This document shows positions 9,836 to 40,380 of a DNA stretch of 40,380 nt, in pieces. Under the pieces are notes generated by a model. That model was not told where the DNA came from, ran no database searches, and was given only the letters and a program-made list of their open reading frames with translations. The position numbers and the translations under genes were made by a program. The number at the start of each line of letters is the position of its first letter. Positions within the stretch are counted from its first letter, which is position 1. The stretch covers positions 1 through 40,380 of the forward strand of contig JAJZDN010000034.1 in assembly GCA_021805985.1 (NCBI GenBank), given 5' to 3'. Origin of the DNA: Planctomycetota bacterium. Lineage in GTDB: Bacteria > Planctomycetota > Phycisphaerae > WQYP01.

Positions 9836-10048
9836 ATGCAAAATACCAAGGAACCATGGGTTGACGTGGAGAAAGTTGCCGCCCATTTGGGTGTAAATAA
9901 GGATTCCATCTATCGGAGGATTGAGAATCGCAAATTTCCAGCCCACCGTGCAGGGCGTCTGTTCCGGTTTAAGCTCTCGGAAGTCGATGCTTGGGTGACA
10001 CAAGGTGGCGGCAATCATAAGGAACGTAAAGGGAACATCCCGAAATGA
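9836..10048 (+). CDS. Excisionase-type helix-turn-helix protein
   Basis: A 70-residue DNA-binding protein of the excisionase (HTH_17, MerR-like) type. Residues 8-55 show the pattern VDVEKVAAHLGVNKDSIYRRIENRKFPAHRAG followed by the RFKLSEVDAWV wing typical of this family. It is probably a small regulator or specificity subunit for the coupled helicase rather than an excisionase, because no integrase is present. Its stop overlaps the helicase ATG in an ATGA arrangement, which argues that the two act together. GGAG lies 12 bases before the ATG. The fold call is firm; the role is inferred from coupling. Confidence 0.85.
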   Translation: MQNTKEPWVDVEKVAAHLGVNKDSIYRRIENRKFPAHRAGRLFRFKLSEVDAWVTQGGGNHKERKGNIPK

Positions 10049-14390: not shown

Positions 14391-14800
14391 CACCCGCCGC
14401 CGAATCGCCACGCCCCGGCCAAACAAATTTTTCGCGTAAATCCCACCAGCCAACACGCCCGCACATTCCCCAACCCAAAAAGCCATTCCGGCGCGCCGGA
14501 ACGGGGCTCGCCACTCCCGAAAATTCCAAGGCCAATTAAAGTTTAGGCCCACCCGTGCCGATAATTGATAGTATATCGGATATAATCGGCTAAGTTGATC
14601 GAAAAACATAAGAAATAATAATCCGATTTATAAGAGGCCGATAAAAACGCCGCTCCTTACCACGCTGGAGCGGTTGAGGTTTGGGGCCGTGGAACAAACC
14701 GCAGTGATCGCCATGTGTAGACAGAACGCAGTGGCAGCGCCGGTGTTCGGATATCTCATCGCGTACAATATTTCTTCGTTTGGCCGAGGGCGGCCACGAC
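14391..14800. other. Intergenic region with palindrome and gene remnant
   Basis: No intact gene is visible. It contains a perfect 16-bp palindrome TTCCGGCGCGCCGGAA (14486-14501) and a diverged copy of an internal piece of the preceding gene (14670-14750). A TATAAT at 14581 has no matching -35 at normal spacing. The region looks like degraded or rearranged DNA. Confidence 0.5.
14670..14750 (+). repeat. Diverged partial copy of the AlbA_2 gene (13961-14041)
   Basis: About 80 bp here closely matches 13961-14041 inside the AlbA_2/HATPase gene: both contain GAGGTTTGGGGCCGTGGAAC and then TGATCGCCATGTGT, with scattered substitutions and small indels. The similarity stops abruptly at both ends. It is the remnant of a second related gene or of a partial duplication. 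Confidence 0.75.
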
Positions 14801-15550
14801 ATGGCGCTTACCGAAGCGCAGTCCCATGGAGTTTGCAGCATGCTTGACGTAAAAATAGACCCGCTACCCTGGTGGGACCGGCTTCGCGCCCGCTTTACCG
14901 TGGCAAGGCGACGCTCACGCACGGAATGCCATCGCCGATTGGTGGCGGCGCTCGTAGAATTCAGGCTCAACGACTACGAGAAGATGGTAACCCGCGTTGG
15001 CGAGGGCGACCGCCGCAAGGTGGTGCGATACGAGATGGGCGAAATCCTCTCAGGCGATGCTTATCTCGAAAAATCTGGCGAAGAACTGGCCCGTGCTATT
15101 GAGGAGGGGATACAAGTGCGGATGGCCGATGAAATCCTCTGGCACCAAATTGCTTGTCTAAACCACGCTGGCCGGTTCGCGCAAGACGCCCATCTGACCG
15201 TTAACACTGTGAATCCACAGCATTTTTCGACCACCGCTATTCCCGCTATCTCAAAATGCTTCCCGTTCCTGACCCAGCCGATCAAAGCTGTCCCGCCTGC
15301 GTCGCCAAGACAATTGCCGACCGAGTGGAGATTGTCTGACGCCTTAACGAACCTTCTTCGCCAGTGGCTGGGTAGTCACGCGCTTCCGACGATGCGGTAC
15401 AAGTTCGGCCCGCATCCGGGGCCACAAGATTTGGTGTCCTTGAGTATCCTCAGTGAAGGCGACCCCGCCGTAGTGACCGTTCCCATGGGATGGCATCCGG
15501 CTGGCAATCAAATGGAGGGAACACATGACAATTCCGCAAAACCATGCTGA
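14801..15550 (+). CDS. Hypothetical protein
   Basis: I do not recognise this protein of about 249 residues. It starts with a basic region (WWDRLRARFTVARRRSRTECHRRL) followed by a probably helical segment to about residue 115, and then a less structured Pro-rich part. The start is uncertain: ATG at 14801 has GAGGG ten bases upstream, and ATG at 14840 is an alternative. Its last 26 bases overlap the start of the HNH gene, which suggests the two are expressed together. It lies in the repeat-rich, partly degraded middle of the cargo, so it could itself be a remnant. Confidence 0.45.
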   Translation: MALTEAQSHGVCSMLDVKIDPLPWWDRLRARFTVARRRSRTECHRRLVAALVEFRLNDYEKMVTRVGEGDRRKVVRYEMGEILSGDAYLEKSGEELARAIEEGIQVRMADEILWHQIACLNHAGRFAQDAHLTVNTVNPQHFSTTAIPAISKCFPFLTQPIKAVPPASPRQLPTEWRLSDALTNLLRQWLGSHALPTMRYKFGPHPGPQDLVSLSILSEGDPAVVTVPMGWHPAGNQMEGTHDNSAKPC

Positions 15551-15869
15551 CAATCTTCTCGCAGATTGTGGCCGGCGCTGCTGCATTTGCAGGCGATTTA
15601 AGCCCCTGCACCTTCAGGTACATCACATTCAGCCGCGCGAGGAAGGTGGAACCGACAATCCAGACAACCTTATCGCTCTGTGCGTCACATGCCATAGCAG
15701 CGTCCACACGAAAACAAATATGACCCGCAACTTCACGTTGACCGAGCTTAAGCAGCATCGAGACAACACCATTGCCGCTGTACGCGACGGGCGGCTGGTG
15801 GAGAACAGCGAGCCGCCCGATGTTTTCGAGGCGACGCTAAAAGCGATGCCCAGCGCTACCCTGGGCTGA
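15525..15869 (+). CDS. HNH endonuclease domain protein
   Basis: A 114-residue protein whose first 60 residues form a classic HNH nuclease core. It has a zinc-binding CxxC (Cys19/Cys22), the catalytic LQVHHIQPREEGG stretch (His33-His34), TDNPDNLIALC with the HNH asparagine, and a second CxxC-His (Cys53, Cys56, His57). The C-terminal half is charged and probably helical. GGAGGG precedes the ATG. It overlaps the end of the upstream hypothetical gene. Small HNH proteins can be restriction nucleases, homing-type nucleases or accessory nucleases of defence systems; the context favours defence, but nothing fixes the target. Confidence 0.87.
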   Translation: MTIPQNHADNLLADCGRRCCICRRFKPLHLQVHHIQPREEGGTDNPDNLIALCVTCHSSVHTKTNMTRNFTLTELKQHRDNTIAAVRDGRLVENSEPPDVFEATLKAMPSATLG

Positions 15870-15914
15870 TGAAAGCCCCGATGCCGCGTTCATGCCATTT
15901 GTGTTGCGCGACCG

Positions 15915-16305
15915 AAACAAGGTCCAAGGACGCCAAGTTCGGAAAGTTGAGAAAAGGCTTGGTGTCAGCGGGTTTGGTTCAAATGTGCCAAGATTGCCAG
16001 GTTGTTTTTGGGGGCGACGAAGCCGCCAACATTTAGTATTTGGCATTCAGCCTTTGGGACGCTTGCGGTGTTCAGCGAGGCAACTTGCCCTAGATGCCCA
16101 AGATGTTTTTGGGCGGCTGTGGCCGCCGGCTTACCGCGTTGAGCAATCAGTTTTCAGCGGGCGGCAAGGTGGCCAAGATGGCCAAGTTAGGGGGCAAGGT
16201 GGCCAAGTTAGGAAAATTGATAAGAGCCTTGATGGCAGCGGGCTGTGTTCAAGGTGGCCAAGATGGCCAAGTTGTTTTATGGGGGGCGGCGGCTGCCGCC
16301 AGAGC
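15915..16305 (+). repeat. Cluster of diverged direct repeats with GC hairpins
   Basis: Two diverged units of about 100 bp (about 15917-16030 and 16195-16305) share the order CCAAGTT, GGAAA, TTGA, GCAGCGGG-like and a CCAAG-rich end. A shorter third piece lies at about 16088-16132. A 23-bp block is exactly repeated at 16166-16188 and 16251-16273 (core GGTGGCCAAGATGGCCAAG). The two right-hand copies end in a GC hairpin of the GGCGGC...GCCGCC type. The frame is open through part of this, but the translation is low-complexity, so it is best read as a repeat family. Confidence 0.65.
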
Positions 16306-16372
16306 AGTTGAGCAGGAGAGCGTGCGGAGTTGGCGCGGGCGTCGACATTCTGCCGGGTACATAGCGATCCTC

Positions 16373-17008
16373 ATGGCTGAGGCGGAGCCAATGATGCGGG
16401 CATGTTATTTAATTGTCAAAGAACATTGTTCAGCAGATCTGAACCGTTCATTGGTTTGCTATAGGGAGGCAGTGAGGGCGATAAGAGCGCTACTGCGCCA
16501 AGAAGTTGAAGATTTGGACCCCAGAGGCATGGCAGAAACTTTCACAGGCCCATATGTGGGGGCGCGGGAGTGGATTTAGGATTCCATGGGCGCAGCGCAA
16601 CAGATTCAGAGACTTGGAGCACAGAAAAAACACGCAATACGTCAAGGTTTTCATCAGCCCAGCGCTACCCTTCCATCGCTCGTGCAGCCCACAGCACCGG
16701 GGCGGCGGCTCATGCCCGAGGCAGTTGAAATACTCCTGGCTGCCGCGAAACAGGATCAACCCCTGCTGCCTGTGCAATATGATGGCGGGTGGGTATTACA
16801 ATGCGGCCCGATACAGTTTCCGAGCGACCAAACTGGCCCACGGAAGCAAGCCACATATCGACGGGCATTCGAGCAATTGATACAAAGCGGCCTTGTCGAG
16901 CATGCCCATGGAAACGTCTGGGGTATCTCCCACGACGGCTACCTGCTGGCCGACCAACTTATCGCTGCAGCACAACCCAGGTCAGCGCAACCGGAAACAA
17001 CCCTGTAA
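16373..17008 (+). pseudogene. Probable broken gene with C-terminal winged helix
   Basis: One reading frame runs from about 16373 to 17008 but is interrupted by a TAG at 16577-16579, with the next ATG two codons later at 16586. The first part (MAEAEPMMRACYLIVKEH, then REAVRAIRALLRQEVEDL) looks helical. The second part ends in a region that resembles the C-terminal winged-helix module of several uncharacterised proteins (PEAVEILLAAA, then RRAFEQLIQSGLVEHAHG and GYLLADQLI). Upstream the frame merges into the repeat cluster. Either a single gene has been split by a nonsense mutation, or only the 3' part (ATG at 16586 or 16712) is expressed. No function is assigned. Confidence 0.45.
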
Positions 17009-17112
17009 CGCCGGCATCTTGCCTGCATCCCAAGCGGACAGGACGCCTGCGACACCGGCACAGTGCGTGCGGGAAAATTGGAATTGACTCGGACAACCAA
17101 AGGAAAAGAGTA

Positions 17113-17931
17113 ATGAGCGAACCACATAGACACCACATCGTTGGACGATTTTATCTCAAGCACTTCACCGCCACGGGGATGAAGGACGGACCATTCCATG
17201 TTTTCGACGTACGGAAACAAATAATTCGCCGCTCAACCCCAAGCGCCGAACCCTTGATAAAGGATTTCAATCGCGATGAGAGCCTCACCGATCCGATGAG
17301 TGTCGAAAGATACTTCGCCGATATCGAAGGAATGATTACGCCAGTCCTTGGCAAAACTGTCGGATCTGGAAAACTTCCTGAATCCTTGGAATCGCGTGCG
17401 TGGCTCGTCGTGTTTGTGGCATTGACTATTGCCCGGCTTCCCGCGTTTCGACTACAGGCACAAGATTTCGGGGCCAAAACGAGTGGCCGGGCGGATCTGC
17501 TTCCGCGAGACCTGCCCCCTGCCATTGAGAAGTTGTTGCCACTTTTGCACAAACGCTGGTGGCGGGTATACAAATTTCCGGTGTCGGCTGGTACACTCGT
17601 GACATCAGATTGTCCGGCAATATTGACGGCGAGGTCTACATTGTTGCCCTTCACGCCGGAAAATTTTGCAGAGGGGATAATTGTATTTCCATTATCATCC
17701 GATTGCTTTATGTTATCCGGGATCCCCGGCGCGACTTCCTCCAGAAACATTCCGCTGGATACGCTTGCGGTTGCCATGGCTAACGGTTGGCAAATCCAAG
17801 CCGCTTTCTTCCGCGCCGAGGCAAGCGGTTTTCCACCAAGGCTATTCTCCCCATCGCCCGATTTCCCAACCATTGACCACCGCACCAATCTGACCACCTT
17901 CCGAAAGCTGTATCCAGAGTTCCATGAATAA
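17113..17931 (+). CDS. DUF4238 family protein
   Basis: A 272-residue protein of the DUF4238 family. The hallmark N-terminus is present (HRHHIVGRFYLKHFT, residues 5-19). The conserved LVTSDCPAI segment around residue 160 matches the usual SDNP motif of the family. The middle, between about residues 115 and 140, seems shorter than I remember for this family. The function is unknown; family members often appear singly in defence islands and on mobile elements. The ATG at 17113 is chosen because GGAAAAGAG lies just upstream and the family motif begins a few residues in, although the frame is open further upstream. A repeat-derived promoter for the next gene follows. Confidence 0.8.
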   Translation: MSEPHRHHIVGRFYLKHFTATGMKDGPFHVFDVRKQIIRRSTPSAEPLIKDFNRDESLTDPMSVERYFADIEGMITPVLGKTVGSGKLPESLESRAWLVVFVALTIARLPAFRLQAQDFGAKTSGRADLLPRDLPPAIEKLLPLLHKRWWRVYKFPVSAGTLVTSDCPAILTARSTLLPFTPENFAEGIIVFPLSSDCFMLSGIPGATSSRNIPLDTLAVAMANGWQIQAAFFRAEASGFPPRLFSPSPDFPTIDHRTNLTTFRKLYPEFHE

Positions 17932-18008
17932 ATCCCGCTGTCAAATATCTCCGCGAGCGGAGTTTATCCCGACACATCGGGGTGCCTCCGCGTGAGATTC
18001 CCCGAGAG

Positions 18009-18037
18009 CTGACCGCTGAAAGCTGATCGCTTACAAT
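18009..18037 (+). promoter_or_regulatory. Putative promoter of the mod-res-sbcD-sbcC operon
   Basis: CTGACC (18009-18014) and TACAAT (18032-18037) are spaced by 17 bp. The start codon of mod is only eight bases after the -10, and no ribosome site is present, so the transcript would be leaderless or nearly so. The promoter lies in a small repeat-like stretch (GCTGACCGCTGAAAGCTGA). Confidence 0.45.
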
Positions 18038-18044
18038 ACATCGC

Positions 18045-19835
18045 ATGGCCAACGGCAAACAAAAACTTGAACTTACTTGGATCGGAAAGGACATCCGGCC
18101 AAAATTGGAGCCGCGGATTCTTATTGAAGACCCGGCGAAAAGCTACCACGCGGGATTCCGGACGGTTGGGTCGCGCGGAGGCGAGAACGCGGAGAACGCT
18201 GGAAAACAATCCCCAACCTCTGCGGCCTCCGCGCCTCGTGAGGACTTCTTCGATAACCGCCTGATTTTTGGTGACAACCTTTTGGCGCTCAAGGCGCTGG
18301 AGCAGGAATTTACCGGAAAAATCAAGTGCATCTACATTGATCCGCCGTACAACACCGGCTCGGCCTTTACACATTACGATGACGGCATTGAGCATTCCTT
18401 ATGGCTTTCCCTGATGCGCGATCGGCTGGAATTATTGCGGCAACTGCTTTCGCCGGATGGGTCGATCTGGATCAGCATTGATGATAACGAGCAGGCCTAC
18501 CTGCGGGTGGTGATGGACGAGGTTTTCCAGCGTGCAAACTTCAGAGCCTGCGTGACATGGCAAAGGAAATATAGCGTCAGCAATAATTTTCAGGGCATCG
18601 CGACGATCTGTGACTACATTCTTGTGTATTCAAAGAGCGAGGCATTTCAAAACAACCTGCTTCCAAGGAGCCGAGAGTCGATAGACCGTTACGCCAATCC
18701 CGACAACGACCCAAGAGGACCATGGAAGGCCGTTGACTACCTTAATCAGGCAACCCCAGAACAACGCCGGAATCTCTGCTACCCAATCGTGAATCCAAAT
18801 ACCGGAGAGGTGATAAACAACACAAAGAAGGCGTGGAAATACGAGCCAGACGCCCACCGGACACACGTCGAAGAAAACCGGCTATGGTGGGGGCGCGAGG
18901 GAAAGAACTCCGTGCCGGCCTTAAAACTGTTCTTGTCGGAAGTCCGCGATGGAATGACCCCACATAACTGGTGGCCCCACGATGAGGTAGGGCATACCGA
19001 CGAGGCCAAAAAAGAAGGGATTGCAATGTTTGGTGCCACCGAGGTTTTTGACACACCCAAGCCCGAGCGGCTGATCCACCGCATACTCACCCTCGCCACA
19101 AACCCCGGCGATTGGGTTCTCGATTCCTTCGCCGGCTCCGGCACCACTGGTGCGGTCGCACACAAAATGGGCCGCAAGTGGATCATGGTGGAGCTTGGCG
19201 AGCATTGCCACACCCACATTATTCCACGGCTGACAAAAGTTATTGATGGCACCGACCCCGGCGGCATTACCGAATCTGTCGGCTGGCAGGGTGGCGGCGG
19301 CTTCCGCTATTACCGCGTCGGGCCGTCGCTGTTGGAAAAAGACCGATTCGGTAATCTGGTTATCAGCAAAGAATTCAATTCGGCCATGCTCGCCGAGGCT
19401 ATCTGCAAGCTGGAGGGTTTTATTTACGCACCCAGTGACACGGTATACTGGCAGCAAGGGCACTCCACCGAGACCGACTTCATCTTTGTGACCACACAAA
19501 CACTCGCCCGCGAACAGTTGCAGAAACTTTCCGATGAGGTGGGAGAAGGTCGTTCACTGTTGGTCATGTGCGGTGCGTTCCGCGCCAAAAGCCTTGAGGG
19601 GTTTCCGAACCTGACCGTGAAGAAAATTCCGAAGGCCGTGCTGGCCAAATGCGAATGGGGCCATGACGACTATAGTCTGGAGATAAAGAATCTGCCGATG
19701 AAAACACCCTATTCGGAGGAAGCCCGGGAGCCGTCATCCCACACCATGAAGCCACGATCCAAGGCGGAACGGCGAGCCAGCGTGCAGACACCATCCCTCT
19801 TCGAGTTTTCCGAAGGAAGGGAAGGCCCACAATGA
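18045..19835 (+). CDS. mod: Type III DNA adenine methyltransferase (Mod)
   Basis: A 596-residue N6-adenine methyltransferase of the beta class, the modification subunit of a type III restriction system. Motif IV DPPYNTG is at residues 99-105 and the SAM-binding DSFAGSGTTG at 360-369, in the order expected of this class. The SIWISIDDNEQAYL segment and the family N-terminus (LEPRILIEDPAKSYHA) are clear. Residues about 41-64 are an extra Ala/Ser/Gly-rich stretch, encoded by a palindromic repeat and not expected in relatives as I remember them. The stop overlaps the res start (ATGA). No ribosome site precedes the ATG. Modification would protect host DNA from the coupled nuclease. Confidence 0.95.
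   Translation: MANGKQKLELTWIGKDIRPKLEPRILIEDPAKSYHAGFRTVGSRGGENAENAGKQSPTSAASAPREDFFDNRLIFGDNLLALKALEQEFTGKIKCIYIDPPYNTGSAFTHYDDGIEHSLWLSLMRDRLELLRQLLSPDGSIWISIDDNEQAYLRVVMDEVFQRANFRACVTWQRKYSVSNNFQGIATICDYILVYSKSEAFQNNLLPRSRESIDRYANPDNDPRGPWKAVDYLNQATPEQRRNLCYPIVNPNTGEVINNTKKAWKYEPDAHRTHVEENRLWWGREGKNSVPALKLFLSEVRDGMTPHNWWPHDEVGHTDEAKKEGIAMFGATEVFDTPKPERLIHRILTLATNPGDWVLDSFAGSGTTGAVAHKMGRKWIMVELGEHCHTHIIPRLTKVIDGTDPGGITESVGWQGGGGFRYYRVGPSLLEKDRFGNLVISKEFNSAMLAEAICKLEGFIYAPSDTVYWQQGHSTETDFIFVTTQTLAREQLQKLSDEVGEGRSLLVMCGAFRAKSLEGFPNLTVKKIPKAVLAKCEWGHDDYSLEIKNLPMKTPYSEEAREPSSHTMKPRSKAERRASVQTPSLFEFSEGREGPQ
18173..18234. repeat. Palindromic repeat inserted in frame within mod
   Basis: GCGCGGAGGC (18173-18182) and GCCTCCGCGC (18225-18234) form a perfect 10-bp inverted repeat, extended imperfectly by CGCGGAGAACGC and CCTCTGCG inside. 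The interval keeps the mod frame open. A related fragment (GCCTCCGCGTGAGA) lies at 17983-17996 just upstream of mod, so this is a small dispersed palindromic element. Confidence 0.65.
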
Positions 19836-22543
19836 ACCCACACATCAATGGAATTGCCAATCGCCTGAGCTTGCGGCCCCCGCAGCGAGAATCGCTGGAA
19901 ATTCTCGCGCGGGTATGTGAAATCATCTCGCTGGAAAAAGGAGCCGATCCCGTCCGATCCTTGAAGGCTATTCAGACCGAGTATGCGACGGTCACGGACT
20001 TCGAGCGGGATTTTCCATCACTCTGTTTCGCTTTGGCGACCGGCGTGGGCAAGACCCGCCTCATGGGAGCCTTCATCGCCTACCTGTACAGGGCGGAAGG
20101 CATCCGTCATTTCTTCGTCCTCTCGCCAAATTTGACCATTTATAATAAATTAATTATGGATCTTACACCGGGCACGCCAAAGTATGTCTTCCAAGGCATT
20201 TCAGAATTTGCTATCGAGCCGCCGGAAATCATCACCGGCGATAACTACGAGAGCGGTCGCGGCGTCCGCGGTGGGCGTCTCTTCGAGTCGAATGTTCACA
20301 TCAACATCTTCAACATATCGAAGATTACCAGCACGGAGACGCCCAAAGGCGCTGAGAAGACCAATGTTCCACGATTCCGCCGGCTTCAGGAATATATCGG
20401 GGAGAGTTACTTCGATTATCTCTCAAAGCTCGACGACCTCGTGCTGCTCATGGACGAATCCCACCGCTACAGAGCCTCGGCGGCCATGAAGGCGATCAGC
20501 GAATTAAAGCCCATTCTCGGCCTTGAGCTTACTGCCACACCCCAGGTGGAACGCGGCAGCGGCAAGCAGGCATTCCAGAACGTCATCTATGCCTACCCGC
20601 TATCCAGCGCCATGACGGACGGATTTGTCAAAGAACCCGCCGTGGCGACGCGCGAAAACTTCAATCCGAAGAATTATGATGCGGCCAGCCTGGAGCGGCT
20701 AAAACTGGAAGACGGCGTGCGCATCCACGAGAATACCAAGGTCGAACTGGAAGTATACGCCCGCGAGAACGGCAAGCCGATCGTAAAGCCGTTCATGCTA
20801 ATTATTGCCAGGGATACCGACCACGCCGACGCCCTTGCGAAGTTCGTTGAAGATGAGGCGTTTTTTGAGGGGCGATACAAGGGTAAGGTCATCCAGGTTC
20901 ACTCAAAGCAGAGCGGCGAGGAACGCGATGAGACCATTGAACAGCTTATCAATGTGGAGCGGCCGGAAAACCCGACGGAAATCGTTATTCATGTCAATAT
21001 GCTCAAAGAAGGCTGGGATGTCACCAATCTCTACACCATCGTCCCGCTGCGCGCCGCGAACTCGCAAACGCTGGTGGAGCAGTCCATCGGGCGCGGTCTG
21101 CGCCTGCCCTATGGTCGTCGGACAGGTGTCGGCGCGGTGGATCGCTTGACCATCGTATCGCACGATCGGTTCCAGGAGATTGTAGATTACGCCAACAGCC
21201 CGGACTCGGTGATTCGGGGTGGCTTGAAGGTAATCTATGTAAATGACGAGCGATCCAAGGTGGTGATAGCAGAACCCGAAATTATGCAGCGCATTCAACC
21301 ACGGTCCATTGAGGAGGGCGGCGGTGAATACAAGGGAGAACAACAGAAACTGCTCTTCGAAAAACCGAAAGAACAGGAAGCGGCCAAGGCCACCCTCGAA
21401 ATCATTCACCGGCATTTTGAGTATCTACCGCGTTCCGTCGACCTCGCGACGCCGGAAATCCAACAGCAGATCGTTGAGAAAGTGCGGAATGCCATTACTC
21501 CGTCGCAACAGGAACTGGATGGTATTGTAGATTCGGTGAATCTGGTGGATGTGGTGGCCAAGACCATCGCCTTGCGTAACGAGCTGTCTATTGATATTCC
21601 GCGCATCACCGTCCAACCAGTGGGCGAGGTGACGCGCGGCTTCCGGGAGTTCAACCTCGACTTGTCAGGTGTGCGGCTCCAGCCGGTGGACAATGAGATT
21701 CTCATTCAGGAATTGCACAATCGGGAGCAGCATAGGCTCATGAGCGGCACCGGCATCGTGCCCGAAGAAAAACTCGAAGACTACCTTGTGCGTGGTCTCA
21801 TTGATTTTAACGATGTGTGCTATGACGACCACGCGGAACTGTTGTATAAACTGGCGGGGCAGGTCGTGGCGCATTTGCGGTCCTACCTGAAGAATGAGGA
21901 TGAGGTGCTCAATGTGCTTCAGTACCACCAGCAATCACTGGTGAACCTGATACATGCCCAGATGCAGGATCATTTTGTGGAAAAAGCTACCACTTATAAA
22001 GCCTATGTAAGCAAGGGGTTCACAACCCTACGGCCCAATAATTACTCGGCTCCTGCGGGCGCAACCGAGTGCGACTTCCGCGCCATGGTCTCAAACAAAC
22101 AGGATATTCCCAAGATGCTATTTGCCGGGTTTGGCAGGTGTCTTTACCGTGTGCAGAAATTCGATTCGGATTCAGAGCGGCGTTTTGCTGTGATCCTGGA
22201 AAATGACAAGGAAGTAATCAAGTGGTTCAAACCGGCTAAAGGCGACTTCCAGATTCACTACACAGGCGAGGCGTCCTACGAACCTGATTTCGTGGTCGAG
22301 ACCAGAACGGCGAAGTTCCTCTGCGAACCCAAAGCCGCTAACGAGCTAACAGCAGTGGATGTGGTAGCCAAGGCCGCTGCCGCAACGGAATGGTGCGCCA
22401 ACGCCACAGCCCACGAAAAGCAACATGGCGGCAAGCCTTGGTCCTATCTGCTTATTCCGCACGACGTTATTTTGGATAACAAGACGCTTCAGGGATTAGC
22501 CGCAACTTACACCTATCGCGATACATCCAGCGACCAACAGTGA
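19832..22543 (+). CDS. res: Type III restriction helicase-nuclease (Res)
   Basis: A 903-residue restriction subunit partnered with Mod. The helicase part has Walker A ATGVGKT (residues 69-75), motif II DESH (208-211), LTATP after it, and motif VI EQSIGRGLRLPYG in the second lobe. The C-terminal nuclease is of the PD-(D/E)xK type: Pro818-Asp819 in YEPDFVVE, then Glu832-Pro-Lys834 in LCEPKAANE. Length and order match Res subunits of type III systems. The start overlaps the mod stop by four bases, and only 15 bases separate it from the downstream nuclease gene, so all four genes form one operon. Confidence 0.95.
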   Translation: MNPHINGIANRLSLRPPQRESLEILARVCEIISLEKGADPVRSLKAIQTEYATVTDFERDFPSLCFALATGVGKTRLMGAFIAYLYRAEGIRHFFVLSPNLTIYNKLIMDLTPGTPKYVFQGISEFAIEPPEIITGDNYESGRGVRGGRLFESNVHINIFNISKITSTETPKGAEKTNVPRFRRLQEYIGESYFDYLSKLDDLVLLMDESHRYRASAAMKAISELKPILGLELTATPQVERGSGKQAFQNVIYAYPLSSAMTDGFVKEPAVATRENFNPKNYDAASLERLKLEDGVRIHENTKVELEVYARENGKPIVKPFMLIIARDTDHADALAKFVEDEAFFEGRYKGKVIQVHSKQSGEERDETIEQLINVERPENPTEIVIHVNMLKEGWDVTNLYTIVPLRAANSQTLVEQSIGRGLRLPYGRRTGVGAVDRLTIVSHDRFQEIVDYANSPDSVIRGGLKVIYVNDERSKVVIAEPEIMQRIQPRSIEEGGGEYKGEQQKLLFEKPKEQEAAKATLEIIHRHFEYLPRSVDLATPEIQQQIVEKVRNAITPSQQELDGIVDSVNLVDVVAKTIALRNELSIDIPRITVQPVGEVTRGFREFNLDLSGVRLQPVDNEILIQELHNREQHRLMSGTGIVPEEKLEDYLVRGLIDFNDVCYDDHAELLYKLAGQVVAHLRSYLKNEDEVLNVLQYHQQSLVNLIHAQMQDHFVEKATTYKAYVSKGFTTLRPNNYSAPAGATECDFRAMVSNKQDIPKMLFAGFGRCLYRVQKFDSDSERRFAVILENDKEVIKWFKPAKGDFQIHYTGEASYEPDFVVETRTAKFLCEPKAANELTAVDVVAKAAAATEWCANATAHEKQHGGKPWSYLLIPHDVILDNKTLQGLAATYTYRDTSSDQQ

Positions 22544-22558
22544 TTCGGAGAAACTGCA

Positions 22559-23689
22559 ATGATTCGATTCCTGCATACCAGCGACTGGCAATTGGGGATG
22601 ACCCGCCACTTTTTTTCAGAGGGTGCGCAAGAACGCTACAGTCAATCAAGGTTTGATGCGATTCGCTCCATGGGCCAGATCGCCAAGGAAAACGAATGCC
22701 GGTTCATGCTGGTGTGTGGTGACTTATTTGAGTCGAACCAGGTCGACCGGAAGACCGTCGCCCGCGCTCTGGACGCACTCAGGGATGTGTCAATCCCCGT
22801 GTTCATTCTTCCGGGCAACCATGACCCTTTGAACGCCGCTTCTGTATACCATTCGAGTACCTTCATTGAGCAGAAGCCTTCGCATGTGCGGGTGGTTGAG
22901 ACCGCCGCGCCCATCAAGATCGCAGAAGGTGTTGAATTGGTAGGTGCTCCATGGCTATCGAAACGTCCAGTCACAAATCCCATTGAGGATGCGATCAATG
23001 CCCTTGAGCCTGCAACCGAAAATATCCGTATTTGTATGGGGCATGGCGCCGTCGATACGCTTGCGCCAGACCGGGAGTCCACCGGGGTTATTTCAGTTTC
23101 AGCACTCGAACTCGCTCTCGACGAAAGGAAGGTAGACTTCGTGGCGCTTGGCGACCGACATTCTTGGACTAAGGTCGGTAAGACCGAGCGTATCTGGTAC
23201 TCCGGTACGCCTGAAATGACGGATTTTCGCGAAACACAATCCGGATACGGCCTCATCGTGGAACTGGGTGAAAGTAGTGTGAACACCAAGCCTATTCAGG
23301 TTGGCCAGTGGCTATTCCTTGAGCACGAACGGGTGGATATCAACTCCGCAGATGATGTGGAAGCGTTAAGACAAACACTGGAGACCATGAAGGATAAGGC
23401 CCGTACGGTCATTCGACTGAACCTCGTTGGCTCACTTTCTCTGACGTTGAGCGGCACACTTCAAAATCATCTTACTGCCGCACAAGATGTATTTGGGGCT
23501 TTCGATGTTCGGGATGACGAACTTCTCCTCGTACCGGACGATACAGATTTTACGAATCTCGGATTTTCGGGTTTTGCCGATGCAACGGTGCAACGACTAC
23601 GCAACAAAATCGTGGACGGTGGAACCGCAGGTACAGAAGCCCGCGAAGCTTTGATGCTTCTGTTGCGGTTGGCGCGGGAGGCGGTATGA
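22559..23689 (+). CDS. Mre11/SbcD-like DNA repair nuclease
   Basis: A 376-residue calcineurin-like metallophosphoesterase of the SbcD/Mre11 type. Metal-binding motifs are SDWQLG (Asp9, Gln11), GDLFE (54-58), GNHDP (86-90), GHG (161-163) and ALGDRHSW (Asp199, His201). The usual Mre11 pattern has His at the Gln11 and Asp199 positions, so two ligands differ. I recall such changes in a subfamily of prokaryotic DNA repair exonucleases, so it may still be active. The C-terminal part (about 260-376) is probably the region that contacts the ATPase partner. Its stop overlaps the following Rad50-like gene by four bases, as expected for subunits of one complex. Confidence 0.9.
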   Translation: MIRFLHTSDWQLGMTRHFFSEGAQERYSQSRFDAIRSMGQIAKENECRFMLVCGDLFESNQVDRKTVARALDALRDVSIPVFILPGNHDPLNAASVYHSSTFIEQKPSHVRVVETAAPIKIAEGVELVGAPWLSKRPVTNPIEDAINALEPATENIRICMGHGAVDTLAPDRESTGVISVSALELALDERKVDFVALGDRHSWTKVGKTERIWYSGTPEMTDFRETQSGYGLIVELGESSVNTKPIQVGQWLFLEHERVDINSADDVEALRQTLETMKDKARTVIRLNLVGSLSLTLSGTLQNHLTAAQDVFGAFDVRDDELLLVPDDTDFTNLGFSGFADATVQRLRNKIVDGGTAGTEAREALMLLLRLAREAV

Positions 23690-26319
23690 AATTCATTCGT
23701 CTTCGAGTTGCCAATTACAGGGGCATTGGCGCAGCCGATGTAAAGTTCGGTCCCGCCGGGATTACGCTCGTGCAAGGGCCGAATGAAGCTGGGAAAACCA
23801 GTCTTGGCGAAGCTATAGGGCTTTTATTTGAATATTTAGATTCCAGTAAGGCTCGAAATATCGAAGCCATCAAGCCGGTTCACAGGGACGAAGGGCCGGA
23901 GATAGAACTGCATGCAGAAAGTGGTCCCTATACGTTCACTTACATGAAGCGCTTTCTCAAACGACCAGAAACCAAACTCACTATCAGCAACCCCAAGCCC
24001 GAAAACCTCACGGGCCGTGAAGCACACGAACACGCCGAGGCCATCCTCCGCGAAACGCTCGACGTTGTCCTCTGGAAGGCACTGAACATTCAGCAAGGCG
24101 ACGCCATTCACCAGCCCGAGTTAGGCAAGCAGACCTCACTTTCCGCCGCGTTGGATCAGGCGGCTGGAGGCCGTCCCACCGATCCTGGCGAAGAGGGCCT
24201 ATTCAACAAGGTGCGAGAGGAATATCTCCGTTATTACACCGAGCGCGGCACAGAGCGGAAAGAGCTAACTGATGCCCGCATTGCATTGACTCGCGCCGAA
24301 GAAGAAGTCTCCAATATCGAGCAGGCAATCCGTAACCTTGACGATGATACCGAACGTGTAGCCTCTCTCCAGCAAGAATTAGCACAATTGAAGGAACAGG
24401 ACGATAGGCTGACCCAAGAGATCATTGCCTATACGGCCTCACTTGCCGAGATCAGAGATTTGGAGAGTGTGCTCTCGACGTCGCGTTTGAAGTTGCAGTC
24501 GGCCCACCAATCCGAGGAAGCGGCACACCGAGACCGCGACTCTCGCCAGGCGCTGATCACGAGGGTTGCCGCAGTCGATCAGGAATACAAGAAGATCAAT
24601 GCCGAAAACGCTATGTCAGTTCCAGCTTTGGACCAGGCTGATCGTGAAGTCAAGAATGCACAAGGTGCTTTCAATGAAGCTGATCAGAAAAGGAAGTTGG
24701 CGGACAGCAATGCGGAACTCCGGCGAGCGGATTTCGACTATTACAATAATAAATTACAGCTTGAACAAATCGGTGAACGCAAGGCGCGTATCGACCTGGC
24801 CAGAACGAACGCTGCGCAGGCCGAGGAACTGCTTCGGCGAAATAAGGTGACCGCGCCGGTTCAACAGTTGATAGAAGAAGCCGAAAGGGAACTGCTTGCC
24901 GCTAAGGCAAAACTGGATACCGGAGCACCGCAAGTTTACCTTCAGAGTTTGGTCGATGGTTGTCTGGTAATTGATGGCACAGACAATACCTTGACGAAAG
25001 GAGAGAAACGATCTTTAACGGTCACCAGCAGCCTGCGGGTCAGCATCCCAAAAACATTGGATATTGAAGTGGTCGCAGGTGCCAGCTTTGCAAAGCTCCA
25101 GAAAAAGGTTGAGGATGCGCAGGTTGGGTTGGACCGCCTGTGTAAACAAGCTGGTGTAGCCGGTCCTCGCGAGGCCAGGCAGGCCTACGATGACCGCAAC
25201 ACTGCCGAGCGAATTGCCGCAGGTAAAGCACAGGTTGAAAAGGAGAATCTCCGGGATCTGGCGTACCAAAAACTGGACGAGATGCTGTTGGCTCTGCAAC
25301 AAGGCGTCCCAGCCTACATCAGAAATCGTGTAAATGAGCCTGTGATATGTCCCGATTTGGAATCGGCAGAACGGGAATGGAAAAACAGAGAGTCGATACG
25401 GCGACAGGCAGTCGGTGCATGGGAATTGGCTCACCAAACGCTGGAGGTGGCAAGCGGTGTGTGGAATGGACTCAATACAAAGCACCACCATGCGCGAGCG
25501 TCATTTGATCTCTCGTCCAAGCAACTTAACCAGATTCGCGCAGACCTTGAGCAGGCACGCGAGAATATTTCCGATGATGATTTGGAAAAAGCTCTGGCGC
25601 AGGCAGTCCAGATCGTGGCTTCCGAGTATGCCAGGGTTCAATCCGCCGAGACGGCGCTCGGGGCGAAAAATCCCGAAAGGGTGAAAACCTTGTCGGAAAC
25701 AGCCAAAGGATCCCTGCAAACTACCCAAAATCGCCGGAATGCCGCTCAAAATGAACTAATCGAAGTTCAGACACGACTGAAAATCCACGGTGAGGATGGA
25801 CTCTACGAGAAACGGGGCGCGGCGCAGGCTGCTTGCGAACGTCTGATGGCGGAGACTTCATCCTGCAATCGGCGGGCGTCTTCTGCCAAATGCCTTTTTG
25901 AGACAATTCGGGAGGAACGGGATAAGGCTCGGCGAGCGTATGTGGCTCCGCTGAAGGAGAAAATTGAACAACTCGGCCGTCTGGTGTTCGATGGATCCTT
26001 CCAAGTGGATATCAGTGAGGAATTGCGGATTACAAGTCGAACGTTGCGGAATATAACCGTACCGTTCGACTCGTTGAGCGGCGGCACTCGCGAACAGCTT
26101 TCTCTAATCTTCCGAATAGCTTGCTCGATCATTGTCTCTCAGAATGGCGGCATGCCGCTCATTTTGGACGATACCCTTGGATACACCGATCCGGGCCGCT
26201 TGCGGCTTATGGGAGCTGTGTTGGCTAAGGCCGCCAAGGACTGCCAAATCGTAATCTTTACATGTGTACCCGAACGCTATGGCAACATCGGAGAAGCGAC
26301 CTGTATTTCCTTACGATGA
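23686..26319 (+). CDS. Rad50/SbcC-like ATPase
   Basis: An 877-residue SMC-like ATPase and the probable partner of the preceding nuclease. Walker A is GPNEAGKT (residues 31-38). The ABC signature LSGGTREQLSL is near residue 797 and Walker B PLILDDTLGYTD near 826. Long coiled-coil segments flank the centre (about 190-420 and 480-740). No CxxC zinc hook is visible; instead the middle holds a strand-rich insert (about 415-460, VYLQSLVDGCLVIDGT and SLTVTSSLRVSI). It is thus a Rad50-like protein with an unusual apex. It is the last gene of the mod-res operon and the last intact gene of the cargo. Confidence 0.9.
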   Translation: MKFIRLRVANYRGIGAADVKFGPAGITLVQGPNEAGKTSLGEAIGLLFEYLDSSKARNIEAIKPVHRDEGPEIELHAESGPYTFTYMKRFLKRPETKLTISNPKPENLTGREAHEHAEAILRETLDVVLWKALNIQQGDAIHQPELGKQTSLSAALDQAAGGRPTDPGEEGLFNKVREEYLRYYTERGTERKELTDARIALTRAEEEVSNIEQAIRNLDDDTERVASLQQELAQLKEQDDRLTQEIIAYTASLAEIRDLESVLSTSRLKLQSAHQSEEAAHRDRDSRQALITRVAAVDQEYKKINAENAMSVPALDQADREVKNAQGAFNEADQKRKLADSNAELRRADFDYYNNKLQLEQIGERKARIDLARTNAAQAEELLRRNKVTAPVQQLIEEAERELLAAKAKLDTGAPQVYLQSLVDGCLVIDGTDNTLTKGEKRSLTVTSSLRVSIPKTLDIEVVAGASFAKLQKKVEDAQVGLDRLCKQAGVAGPREARQAYDDRNTAERIAAGKAQVEKENLRDLAYQKLDEMLLALQQGVPAYIRNRVNEPVICPDLESAEREWKNRESIRRQAVGAWELAHQTLEVASGVWNGLNTKHHHARASFDLSSKQLNQIRADLEQARENISDDDLEKALAQAVQIVASEYARVQSAETALGAKNPERVKTLSETAKGSLQTTQNRRNAAQNELIEVQTRLKIHGEDGLYEKRGAAQAACERLMAETSSCNRRASSAKCLFETIREERDKARRAYVAPLKEKIEQLGRLVFDGSFQVDISEELRITSRTLRNITVPFDSLSGGTREQLSLIFRIACSIIVSQNGGMPLILDDTLGYTDPGRLRLMGAVLAKAAKDCQIVIFTCVPERYGNIGEATCISLR

Positions 26320-36660: not shown

Positions 36661-36969
36661 ATGACCGACATATCACTACCGGCATTTCATCACACGGCGA
36701 CAACCCAGTGTAATATTAAAGTTGATTACCGTATGGGGTTGGATTTACAACTCTACCGGCAGTTCTACAAGCAGGCTTACAATGCGGAGGTTGCCGATGC
36801 GGACCTGGTGCGTGAGATGGCCCGGCGATTTATGGATGCGGACCGGGAGTTTCAGGCGTTCAAGACCAGACTCGCCGCTGCCAACGTCCGCAAAGCACCA
36901 AAGATCAACTCTGCGAATGACGTTAAAAATAGGCCAACACTAAACGGTTCTGGGGCAGTGTCGTCATGA
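36661..36969 (+). CDS. DUF2274-like small protein at the end of the trb operon
   Basis: A 102-residue protein in the place where trb operons usually end with a DUF2274 gene. The segment CNIKVDYRMGLDLQLYRQF, then ADLVREMARRFMDADREFQA resembles DUF2274 proteins (a strand followed by helices, with an invariant-looking DREF near the end). DUF2274 resembles small ribbon-helix-helix or regulatory proteins, but its function is unknown. The ribosome site AAAAGGAG is strong and matches that of trbB. The last about 35 residues are a polar tail. The family call rests on memory of the pattern and on position. Confidence 0.65.
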   Translation: MTDISLPAFHHTATTQCNIKVDYRMGLDLQLYRQFYKQAYNAEVADADLVREMARRFMDADREFQAFKTRLAAANVRKAPKINSANDVKNRPTLNGSGAVSS

Positions 36970-37110
36970 CCGATGGACGATTAAATCATAATTGATTATT
37001 AGATTTGCGGCGTTTTAAAAACAAGAAAGATGCAGCGTGCATGGTCATGTTTATCGTTTCATCAAATTAAGTGACTTGTGTGGCCTCGGCAATTCTCCGT
37101 TAGTTCATCA

Positions 37111-37470
37111 TCATTCTCGACCACACCATTCGATGAATCCCCGTCGCAAAAAGAAGTGACTGTGGCAGCCAACCTTCCGCCAAATCGACGGATGCAGAGA
37201 AATTGTATTGTCACCATACTCGTGAAGCCGCCACTGTGGCTTGGCATCCGGCAATAAACTTACTTGTACTATTGCTCCGCATCCACATGGACAGATCATC
37301 GCCACGAACCACTTTTTTTCCCCTTCGCCCATCACATAGACTGTATCAGCGTCGAGCGTTTCAGGCAACTCTTCCAGATATACGGTGCGCAATCGCTTGG
37401 GAGTTCGTCTGTACCTTGAGACAAGCCGAATCCATATCCGTGAGACCACACCAGCAATAAATCTTATCAT
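37111..37470 (-). CDS. DUF6527 protein, putative metal-binding partner of the ubiquitin-like operon
   Basis: A 119-residue protein that reads as the DUF6527 family. Conserved-looking features are ELPETLDADTVYVMGEGEKK, the cysteine cluster CPCGC (Cys60, Cys62, Cys64) and GCHSHFFLRRG (Cys102, His103, His105). The Cys/His arrangement suggests one bound metal ion, probably zinc. It is the third gene of a minus-strand operon, 14 bases after the JAB-E1 gene. From memory this family regularly accompanies multi-ubiquitin and E2/E1 genes. Its job is unknown; a substrate- or partner-binding role, or a place for the transferred ubiquitin-like domain, would fit. Confidence 0.75.
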   Translation of the reverse strand: MIRFIAGVVSRIWIRLVSRYRRTPKRLRTVYLEELPETLDADTVYVMGEGEKKWFVAMICPCGCGAIVQVSLLPDAKPQWRLHEYGDNTISLHPSIWRKVGCHSHFFLRRGFIEWCGRE

Positions 37471-37484
37471 GCTATTTGCTGCCC

Positions 37485-38876
37485 TTAGCTTAGTTCCGGC
37501 TTATCGAGCAACGGTGCGACATCGCCACGTCCGAGTTCTTTGCTAAGCACTATACAAGTCTGCATTTTCGATTCTGTTTCTTTAAACGTTAGGCCTTCGT
37601 GTAACCCAATACGCTGTGAGGCAAATTCCTCATTTGCGGGGATGCGGTAGCGATGGATTCTCGCCAGCAATTCATTGACCGCCATTGCCGCGACCAGCGT
37701 GTTGACACTGATGACGGCTGGCCTATCCTCTTGGACCAAACGAATGTACTTTTCTCGCCGCCTGCGGCGGTATTCAGTAGGATCATCCCGCCTGAGTAAT
37801 TCTGCCTGCACATCCTCTGATGTATACACGCCGCGTGATTTTAAACTAGATCGCCCAGGTTGCAAGTAATGCACCGCGCCCCAAATCGTATCAATGCCGC
37901 CGTGCGGCAGCGAATTGAGTTGCACGCCCAGATCAAAATATGGCAAGGAATAAAACGCCGCAGCTCTGTTCAATAAGTCTCTTCCATACCATGTATCCAT
38001 ACATCCAACCACCACATCGCATTCGGCAATCGCCTTTACTGCTTGGGAGGTGTCGATATCAATCGCCATCGCGGCGACTCTTGTTCCAAGACCGATTTTG
38101 CCGATGGCATCAGCCAGAACCTCGACCTTGAAACGGCCTATATTGGCATCGGCTGCTGTCGCCATATAGATGCGGTTTAGGTTCCTCCATTCGACCCGAT
38201 CAGGATCAATGAGCACAACCCAACCGACACCAAGTCTTACAAGTTGTTCAATCAGCGGGCTTCCAGTCCCTGAGCAGCCAACGATCGCAATCTTCATGCG
38301 TCTTAGAATCTCGACTGTTCCCTCCCCAAAAGCCTGGGCATGACGCTGCACGAACTCGGGCAAGCCATAACCATTACCCTCTGCGTACCAGAAACACAGG
38401 TCATCTCCGACAATGGATACCAACTCCACAGGCATCTTCTTGCAATCAGGCAAAATTGTTCTTGCAAAAATGCGTCCGTCAGCGCCCGGTAACATCACAG
38501 CGCTCAAATGAGGCCTATCGTCTTCAAGTAGGTCATCGACCGATCTAAAAAAACTGCCATCCGATTGATCATCTCGGGCGGAAAAGCTATCCAATCCTCC
38601 AGGATGACTGTGAATCTTCATGATAGCCATGCCGCGCTGCATTGCCGCCATGATTAATGGGTCGGCGAAACGGGTCGGCCAGTCAACACTGACTTCGGTA
38701 CGAATACATGCGTCGTGCGGAATCAGGGTGATTTGATGAGCACAGAACACAACGCGTTCCTCGCCGTCACGCCGCCCGCATAGAACCAGGGCGGCTGCCT
38801 CAAGCCCATCACCTGGAAACAGGTGTGCCAAGAGCTGCGCATGTTGATGGCTGGTCAATCTCAAAGCATAACGCAT
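37485..38876 (-). CDS. JAB deubiquitinase-like and E1 (ThiF) fusion protein
   Basis: A 463-residue two-domain protein. The N-terminal JAB/JAMM peptidase has Glu26 and the metal motif HSHPGGLDSFSARD (His89, His91, Ser99, Asp102). The C-terminal ThiF/E1 adenylation domain has the nucleotide loop GCSGTG (200-205), the DPDRVEWRNLNR box, Lys250 and VVGCMDTWYGR (Asp294). Where many related E1 proteins carry a cysteine pair after the PG turn, this protein reads PGRSSLKSRG (Ser343, Ser344, Ser347). Adenylation and isopeptidase sites look intact, but the usual thioester cysteine does not. It follows the ubiquitin-like-E2 gene by eight bases. Confidence 0.9.
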   Translation of the reverse strand: MRYALRLTSHQHAQLLAHLFPGDGLEAAALVLCGRRDGEERVVFCAHQITLIPHDACIRTEVSVDWPTRFADPLIMAAMQRGMAIMKIHSHPGGLDSFSARDDQSDGSFFRSVDDLLEDDRPHLSAVMLPGADGRIFARTILPDCKKMPVELVSIVGDDLCFWYAEGNGYGLPEFVQRHAQAFGEGTVEILRRMKIAIVGCSGTGSPLIEQLVRLGVGWVVLIDPDRVEWRNLNRIYMATAADANIGRFKVEVLADAIGKIGLGTRVAAMAIDIDTSQAVKAIAECDVVVGCMDTWYGRDLLNRAAAFYSLPYFDLGVQLNSLPHGGIDTIWGAVHYLQPGRSSLKSRGVYTSEDVQAELLRRDDPTEYRRRRREKYIRLVQEDRPAVISVNTLVAAMAVNELLARIHRYRIPANEEFASQRIGLHEGLTFKETESKMQTCIVLSKELGRGDVAPLLDKPELS

Positions 38877-38884
38877 GCTGATTC

Positions 38885-39667
38885 CTATCGTTTTGGTTCA
38901 GAGTCTAACCATTGCTTAATACGCAGGTGATGTGTGGCCAGGCTATCAATGCCATCACGCCATGAGTAGTGCCGTGACCAGCGCTGATACATTTTGCCGT
39001 CAATAGACTGCGTAGCGACCGCGTTGATGCCCTTACCATCCGTACGCTCGAGAAGTGGCAGAAAATAAGCCATGTCTAAAGCTCCCGGCGGATAGCCCCC
39101 TTCGATACGAATGGCCAGCGTCGCTGTCTGTTGTTTATACCCAGTGGGTAACGCATGATTGTGTATGAGAAGCCATTGCACTGGGCCGTCTTTGATAGTC
39201 TCCCACCGCAACAGTAGCGAGTTAAGGTATGCTTCATCCTCTTTGGGCAGCAAGAAATGGCGACGTGGCGAAGGCTCAATCTTAGCAGATTCTACTTCGT
39301 TCGCCGTTGCTTGCTGGCCATCGCCTTGCGTCAGTTCCATCGTCACAAAACGTTCAAGACCAGGCTGTCCAAGATCAACTACCTCATCCGGAGAAATTTC
39401 CCGCATGAGTCCACCGTGCAGCTTCTGATGGATTCGCCACGCTGAAGGCAACTTATGCACTAGCTGTAATAGCTCCAAGCCAGTAATAAACTGCTTCTCA
39501 ACCGTGAAGTATTCTCGGTCAATTCGGAGCCTATATGTTTTCGCTCGGGGCGGTTTGCAATTCTGCTTGCCGAATGCCTCGATGTCGACAATTTCCACAA
39601 GTTCGCCCTGCTCGATATTTGTGGGGCGATCCTTTGATTCTTCGGGCCGATGTGATTGATCTGACAT
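38885..39667 (-). CDS. Ubiquitin-like (Multi_ubiq) and E2-like (Prok-E2_E) fusion protein
   Basis: A 260-residue fusion. Residues about 42-112 are a single beta-grasp ubiquitin-like domain of the Multi_ubiq type: KTYRLRIDREYFTVEKQFITG, then LHGGLMREISPDEVVDL and GLERFVTMEL. Residues about 136-258 read as the E2-like family E: LPKEDEAYLNSLLLRWE, GYPPGALDMAYFLP, YQRWSRHYSWRDGIDSLATH. The only cysteine in the protein is Cys37, outside the E2 domain. No Gly-Gly ends the ubiquitin-like domain. The ATG at 39667 has AAAGGAAA upstream; a start at 39733 would add 22 residues and is possible. It is the first gene of its operon. Confidence 0.87.
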   Translation of the reverse strand: MSDQSHRPEESKDRPTNIEQGELVEIVDIEAFGKQNCKPPRAKTYRLRIDREYFTVEKQFITGLELLQLVHKLPSAWRIHQKLHGGLMREISPDEVVDLGQPGLERFVTMELTQGDGQQATANEVESAKIEPSPRRHFLLPKEDEAYLNSLLLRWETIKDGPVQWLLIHNHALPTGYKQQTATLAIRIEGGYPPGALDMAYFLPLLERTDGKGINAVATQSIDGKMYQRWSRHYSWRDGIDSLATHHLRIKQWLDSEPKR

Positions 39668-39940
39668 AGCGATTTCCTTTCTGTAAATGTCACCATTTTC
39701 TTCGAGCCGGAATTCCGCAAAATCAGGGCCCATAGTTGCCCCAGTCCCAAAAGCCGGTACGATTGGCTTTCAGCCAGTGGATTGTCGCGTCTTATCGCGG
39801 CTCGGTCGTTCTGCTACTTTATGCCGCTGAGCCAATTGAATTCGCCGCGCGAGATGAAAAATTGCATGCCGTGGCACAATAGGCGATCTAACCGGCATAA
39901 ATTATTGTAGCATTGTTGGCGTTGCGCCAGGGAAGGTCGT
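39668..39940. other. Divergent regulatory region
   Basis: About 270 bp separates the minus-strand ubiquitin-like operon from the plus-strand sigma-factor-like gene. On the minus strand an extended -10 (TGCTACAAT, 39912 down to 39904) could serve the operon, with no clear -35. GGGAAGG ahead of the TTG at 39941 is the ribosome site for the right-hand gene. No repeat or RNA gene was recognised. Confidence 0.35.
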
Positions 39941-40380
39941 TTGCAGGAATTACTTGATCTCAATAATGTAGAACAGGATCGACTGTATAAGCGGCTTACG
40001 CATCACGCTAATTGCAAGATGCACCGTTTAACGTGGCGCGGCGCATACATCGCCCGTGGCGGGTCTGTTCCCAAAGCCTATGAGGCTGGCGATTTTGTTA
40101 ATGATGCCGTTCAGAAGGCGCTTGATGGTGATCGCAATTGGAACCGTCAGGCCTATCCGACGCTCGAAGGTTTTCTTCAGTCGATTATTGACAGCGACAT
40201 CAATCACATGGCCGAGTCGGTGGACAATGCTAAAGTCCGGCGTGAGTCATATACTGCTGGAGAGGGGACACCTTCCGGCTTGTGTGAGATATTGGGGCGT
40301 GAATCGGAACCAATCAGAATATTAATTGATGAAGAATGTCGGAAGCAATTTCATCAAGCTGCGATCCAAGCACTCAAGGA
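39941..40380 (+). CDS. Sigma-70-family-like factor, partial
   Basis: An open frame of at least 146 codons begins at a TTG at 39941 and runs off the window. The translation matches sigma region 2 of ECF-like sigma factors: DRLYKRLTHHANCKMHRL, then AGDFVNDAVQKALDGDRNWN and EGFLQSIIDSDINHMAES. The last visible part (SEPIRILIDEECRKQFHQAA) would lead to region 4. The start is inferred from GGGAAGG just upstream, because the frame is closed by a TAG at 39908. It may be an element regulator or the first chromosomal gene beyond the element. It is divergent from the ubiquitin-like operon. Confidence 0.72.
   Translation, partial: MQELLDLNNVEQDRLYKRLTHHANCKMHRLTWRGAYIARGGSVPKAYEAGDFVNDAVQKALDGDRNWNRQAYPTLEGFLQSIIDSDINHMAESVDNAKVRRESYTAGEGTPSGLCEILGRESEPIRILIDEECRKQFHQAAIQALK

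Follow-up and report, generated by a model that had tools for sequence, protein, structure and literature searches.

How does an operon for ubiquitin-like conjugation hand on its modifier when the cysteines that usually carry it are missing? The question is raised by three closely spaced minus-strand genes at positions 37111-39667 of a 40,380-nucleotide stretch of DNA (hereafter the window), which is contig C185 of a 4.68-Mb Planctomycetota draft genome (MAG). They encode a ubiquitin-like (Ubl) domain fused to an E2-like domain (bubAB), a JAB peptidase fused to an E1-like domain (bubCD) and a DUF6527 protein, with gaps of 8 and 14 bases between them. Bil operons (BilA-D) contain the same set of Ubl, E2, E1 and JAB components and work via cysteine thioesters. 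Unlike in Bil, the catalytic cysteines of both E1 (loop residues 349-392) and E2 are absent in the window. An initial annotation of the sequence proposed that the system adenylates a substrate but transfers it by another route, or not at all. The first part of this proposal agrees with the results below, while the second is unlikely because the ATP site, the JAMM site and the C-terminal glycine of the Ubl are retained.

Identity of the operon

Gene calls and Pfam matches, which exceeded the cut-off for all three proteins, reproduced the genes and domains of the initial annotation (Table 1). The start of bubAB was placed at the ATG at 39667, which is preceded by AGAAAGGAA, a good ribosome-binding site, in preference to an upstream ATG at 39733.

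Table 1 Features of the bub locus and their positions in the window.
Feature	Position	Strand	Basis
bubAB: Multi_ubiq + Prok-E2_E, 260 aa	38885..39667	-	PF14452 E 3e-9, PF14462 E 1e-32
bubCD: JAB/JAMM peptidase (BubD) + E1-like ThiF adenylyltransferase (BubC), 463 aa	37485..38876	-	PF14464, PF00899
DUF6527 protein, predicted zinc-binding (CPCGC ... C..SHF), 119 aa	37111..37470	-	PF20137 E 2e-22
Gly117 codon: predicted mature Ubl C-terminus and JAB cleavage site (TQGDG/QQATANEV)	39317..39319	-	Ungapped tail register
Trp230-Ser231-Arg232-His233 (WSRH; conserved S-x-H motif, E2-like domain)	38969..38980	-	42 E2 domains
Lost zinc CxxC site, codons 343-351 (SSLKSRGVY)	37824..37850	-	MoeB/ThiF alignment; E1 tree
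Tyr377 codon, E1 crossover loop	37746..37748	-	Tyr in 42/42 homologues
Divergent open frame cut by contig end, possibly sigma-factor-like regulator	39941..40380	+	15.8 bits to L008 counterpart

By sequence, the operon is a member of the already described Bub (bacterial ubiquitination-like) system. This operon type was first described, as type 6e, in the 2006 paper of Iyer, Burroughs, Aravind and colleagues, with Ubl repeats, an E2-like domain without cysteine, a JAB-E1 fusion and a partner protein with a C-x3-C...H-x2-C pattern; the E2-like domain was predicted to be catalytically inactive and no transfer mechanism was given (PMC1779556). The window shows the corresponding features, namely a Multi_ubiq Ubl and an E2-like domain fused in one 260-aa protein, a Prok-E2_E domain without catalytic cysteine, a JAB domain N-terminal to the E1-like domain (PF14464, then PF00899) and a Cys/His zinc-finger-like partner, the DUF6527 protein (PF20137). 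As noted initially, the E2-like region is free of cysteine: residues 38-260 contain none, and the only cysteine of BubAB, Cys37, lies outside the E2 domain. A cysteine-less E2 was already part of the operon type as reported in 2006, which makes the missing cysteines a family trait, a possibility that the initial annotation had itself raised and with which our homologue alignments agree. The locus is ordinary for its family, of which 544 operons have been counted (EMBO J 2026, PMC13373217). The same study states that phage protection by Bub operons is undemonstrated, and the role in phage defence that the initial annotation had invoked is not substantiated for this family.

Homologues were found in 262 plasmid records, of which 115 cover at least 80% of the length, so the finding is not due to chance. 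Structures are available for the Citrobacter Bub proteins (PDB 9ea4, 9ea5, 9ea8, 9eae and 9eav; 9d59 for BubA). BubCD of the window aligns with Citrobacter BubCD (9ea4) over residues 5-462 (E 1e-68), and the E2 domain with Citrobacter BubB (9eav_D, E 6e-26). The E2 part was also modelled with AlphaFold2 from a three-row alignment; the model, of modest confidence, matched chain C of 9eae ('Structure of Citrobacter BubCD(D104A)-BubB') with a TM score of 0.86 by target length. When the E2 alignment was used for a profile search of the PDB, it returned BubB itself and one chance match, and nothing else. The two systems share the domain order Ubl-E2, JAB-E1, DUF6527 (the last known from the related plasmid loci L015 and L016), an E1 of the zinc-less clade described below, the WSRH motif, the invariant Tyr and the Ubl tail glycine. 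They differ in that Citrobacter has three Ubl domains, whereas the window has one with a longer linker past the glycine, in that the BubCD proteins are only about 35% identical, and in the ATP-binding and winged-helix proteins, CapK/CapS-like, upstream of the Citrobacter operon.

Bil is linked to Bub through the Ubl, as its BilA chain 8u38 distantly matches Citrobacter BubA. The E1 adenylation fold is shared with CBASS Cap2/Cap3 (Cap2 was among the PDB matches), but in contrast to type II CBASS the fusion partner of the E2 is the Ubl and not the E1, and the cysteines are missing; the window neighbour genes scanned included no CD-NTase or other nucleotidyltransferase.

In the DUF6527 protein, C60, C64, C102 and H105 are invariant across 12 relatives, and its gene adjoins bubCD in most relatives; it presumably has a role in the Bub pathway. 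A fold search with its model (pLDDT 74) gave no significant match. DUF6527 genes also occur near position 2500 of the viral contigs L078, L079 and L081, where the neighbouring frames include no bub E1 or E2, indicating that DUF6527 is not restricted to Bub operons. On Rhizobium, Bradyrhizobium and Deinococcus plasmids (L067, L072 and L073), a bub subtype with the E2 motif FSWH carries a gene annotated as a phosphotransferase between the JAB-E1 and DUF6527 genes.

Active sites and zinc site of the JAB-E1 protein

The homologue set for BubCD comprised 42 JAB-E1 proteins, taken from one viral contig and from plasmids and draft genomes; L074 was excluded because of misalignment. In the ATP site, Gly200, Gly205, Asp224, Arg235, Lys250, Asp294 and Arg299 are invariant in all 42, and the same holds for Pro340 and Tyr377. 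Of the JAMM residues, Glu26, His89, His91 and Asp102 are retained in 41 of 42, and Ser99, also present in the window protein, is conserved in at least 41. The earlier description of the ATP loop, Lys250, Asp294 and the JAMM residues as intact is therefore confirmed across the homologues (at least 41 of 42).

The PG turn of the E1 domain reads PGRSSLKSRG, as annotated, and the cysteine pair usually found here had been regarded as the missing catalytic cysteines. Our alignment to MoeB and ThiF of E. coli points elsewhere. Ser344 and Ser347 align with MoeB Cys172 and Cys175, which we take to be structural zinc ligands, and the catalytic Cys187 of MoeB falls beyond this pair. The pair at the PG turn thus corresponds to the structural zinc CxxC of E1 enzymes and not to a catalytic site. 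Cys441, which aligns with MoeB Cys244, appears to be a remnant of the second zinc pair. Ser343 and Ser344, singled out in the initial annotation, are not conserved: their positions are occupied by Ala, Gly, Thr or Glu in relatives, which rules them out as nucleophiles and hence as transfer residues.

Relatives outside the branch of the window retain the CxxC at the PG turn. The 18 E1s that lack the zinc pair group together in a maximum-likelihood tree (100/100), and still do so after removal of the zinc-pair columns (100/99). On this tree the zinc CxxC was lost once, in the 18-E1 clade, and the loss is old. The clade includes the E1 of a Citrobacter plasmid (L016), a close relative of the solved Citrobacter enzyme, and by sequence the solved enzyme belongs to it as well. 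The missing zinc site and cysteines might resemble the decay of an unused system that adenylates without conjugation. We consider this exceedingly improbable, as the active-site residues are all retained in intact frames, near-identical copies occur in a second MAG and, in part, on another contig of the same MAG, and the zinc loss is old and common to 18 E1s, among them relatives of the solved enzyme.

Nor did the crossover loop provide a cysteine. In the window, residues 349-392 contain none, and no catalytic cysteine is shared among the 42 E1s; stray cysteines in the crossover region of L010, L077 and L024 have no position in common. With no conserved cysteine in the loop of the relatives, a recent loss in this copy, which the initial annotation had considered, is not borne out.

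Ubl tail and predicted processing

In all 20 Ubl tails compared (the window and 19 others; distant siblings with other tails, for example L017, L066, L068 and L072, are outside this count), a Gly lies at a fixed, ungapped distance after the motif xG-[VILT]-E-[RK]. The stand-alone Ubls of L007, L012 and L069 terminate exactly at this Gly, while in the fusions the E2 continues. The solved BubA chains end at VNNG with the matching Gly229, and the BubB chain 9eae_C begins one residue on. Together, the stand-alone Ubl ends and the ends of the solved chains suggest that BubAB of the window should be cut after Gly117, with the JAB domain as the obvious candidate for the protease.

Candidate residues for Ubl transfer

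The E2-like domain lacks the cysteine, as annotated, but it carries a near-invariant serine where the E2s of some siblings have Cys. Position 231 is Ser in 37 of 42 E2 domains, including that of L016, which was shortened in the automatic slice and was read by eye. The other five, L023, L037, L039 and the archaeal plasmids L066 and L068, have Cys. His233 is kept in 38 and the downstream Trp236 in 41 of the 42 domains. The four Cys-type E2s with an E1 in the tree group together (99/96). On the two haloarchaeal plasmids, L066 (Natrinema) and L068 (Salinigranum), the Cys-type E2 is accompanied by a Bub-related JAB-E1 with the invariant Tyr of the E1.

Ser231 follows the beta-meander and precedes the last helix in the AlphaFold2 model (three-row alignment; pLDDT 60-84 for the E2 part), which is the location of the active site in E2s. 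These observations are suggestive of Ser231 as a stand-in for the E2 cysteine and make it the best candidate for an acyl carrier, with an oxyester replacing the thioester. BubB was also compared by profile-profile alignment with six planctomycete UQ_con E2s that have the cysteine; the match was not significant and left Ser231 unpaired with their cysteine, so the equivalence rests on the five sibling sequences and the order of elements. PF14461 (Prok-E2_B), considered as a cysteine-bearing comparison, matched neither the relatives nor the controls.

Alternatively, Ser231 and His233 could be structural, as in RWD domains. BubB would then be a non-catalytic, RWD-like scaffold, and an amine or hydroxyl group of the target would attack the Ubl-AMP directly, without a carrier. 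The 2006 analysis took the E2-like domain to be catalytically inactive (PMC1779556), and the absence of a conserved cysteine from both the E1 loop and the E2 fits such a mechanism. However, Ser231, His233 and Trp236 are among the few residues conserved family-wide in the E2, and a motif alternating between Ser and Cys is not expected to persist in a pure scaffold, which makes a mechanism without a carrier unlikely.

A second candidate is Tyr377, which lies in the loop that holds the catalytic cysteine of E1s and is the only invariant hydroxyl side chain of that loop. It is located nine residues N-terminal of the conserved Pro, compared with eight for MoeB Cys187 and its own Pro, and the solved chain 9eav has Phe at this position, which suggests that others have singled out the same residue. 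The Ubl could leave AMP to form an ester with this tyrosine in the crossover loop and move from there to the target, with BubB serving only for docking. This seems quite unlikely to us, because Tyr377 is just as invariant where the sibling E2 has a cysteine, a gating or acid-base role fits equally well, and the Ser/Cys swap in the E2 would be left unexplained. Decidedly unlikely is a relay in which Tyr377 and then Ser231 carry the Ubl as esters, replacing both thioester steps. If it were true, E2s with Ser or Cys as the carrier, combined with a cysteine-free E1, would form a natural series bearing on the origin of the thioester relay.

We therefore favour Ser231 as the carrier and propose the following scheme for this mobile operon. 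BubD would cut BubAB after Gly117, so that a Ubl ending in glycine is set free and the E2-like BubB becomes a protein of its own. The E1 domain, BubC, would adenylate this glycine with ATP. Transfer of the Ubl would then proceed without a thioester to cysteine, most probably through an ester on BubB Ser231, with His233 and E1 Tyr377 assisting this step. From Ser231 it would move to a target, from which BubD may be able to take it off again. We assign the scheme as a whole a probability of roughly 60%. A thioester route is unlikely in the window system, and Ye et al. are said to have reported in 2026 that Bub conjugation proceeds without cysteine thioesters.

The operon type and the cysteine-less E2 have been known since 2006 (PMC1779556), and this analysis adds that the 'missing pair' belongs to the zinc site, and names Tyr377, Ser231/His233 and Gly117 as residues for testing. 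The family is large and mobile, and its cysteine-free state is stable. With Ser and Cys alternating in the E2 and an invariant Tyr in the E1, natural siblings offer a way to test in which order the steps towards thioester-based ubiquitination arose.

Genomic context and mobility

Genes for conjugation proteins (coupling protein, VirB11-like, VirB4/TrbE, TrbL, VirB8, CagX and TrbI) lie upstream on the plus strand. We propose that a mobile element of this Planctomycetota bacterium carries the bub operon. Inside the conjugation cluster lies a defence island (10045-26319) with an SNF2 helicase close to DISARM DrmD, a Schlafen/AlbA_2 protein, a type III methyltransferase and restriction enzyme, and an SbcD/SbcC-like pair.

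A 99%-identical BubCD is encoded on the Planctomycetota contig JAKAEB010000070.1, and a scan of draft-genome contigs for relatives matched only the near-identical MAG. The operon of that contig is also present on contig C93 of a genome from the window's family. A second bub operon lies in the MAG of the window itself, at about 25.5-27.9 kb of contig C94. Its Ubl and E2 are encoded by separate genes, its E1 is of the zinc type and it includes DUF6527; it also has divergent genes for HTH and ImmA/IrrE-like proteins that resemble CapH/CapP. A third DUF6527 gene lies at the end of contig C166 (44.0-45.0 kb), where the DNA is 96% identical to window positions 36699-37720 and then diverges; this 3' end of an operon represents either a second copy or a strain mixture. 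Locus L004 departs from the window sequence at 36699 and leads into tyrosine recombinases (read by eye), not conjugation genes. The divergence of C166 and L004 indicates that the operon occurs in at least two contexts, or that the MAG is a strain mixture.

Viral contigs contained one full bub operon (L043; L080 and L084 are the same contig), lone DUF6527 genes and one distant E2-like match (L085). On L043, an IMG/VR contig, the complete operon and a divergent ImmA/IrrE gene are found beside phage structural genes that by eye are Mu-type-like.

Divergent upstream gene

The sets of upstream regulators named for Bub, CapW, CapH+CapP and CapK+CapS, occur only in part of the family (EMBO J 2026, PMC13373217). 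Divergent genes, all on the minus strand, lie upstream of the operons in L006 (1664-2266), L008 (2101-2694), L010 (1826-2428) and L043 (2075-2716). In searches with sigma-70 models, the L006 gene matched Sigma70_r2 above the cut-off and the L043 gene weakly. Several bub operons thus look to have a sigma-factor-like divergent gene upstream, which differs from the three regulator sets of that study. The contig ends 0.65 kb upstream of the window operon, and only a partial divergent frame is visible; its weak similarity to the L008 gene (Table 1) tentatively suggests a sigma-factor-like operon regulator here as well. In L010 and L043, a gene for an ImmA/IrrE peptidase is located next to the divergent sigma-like gene.
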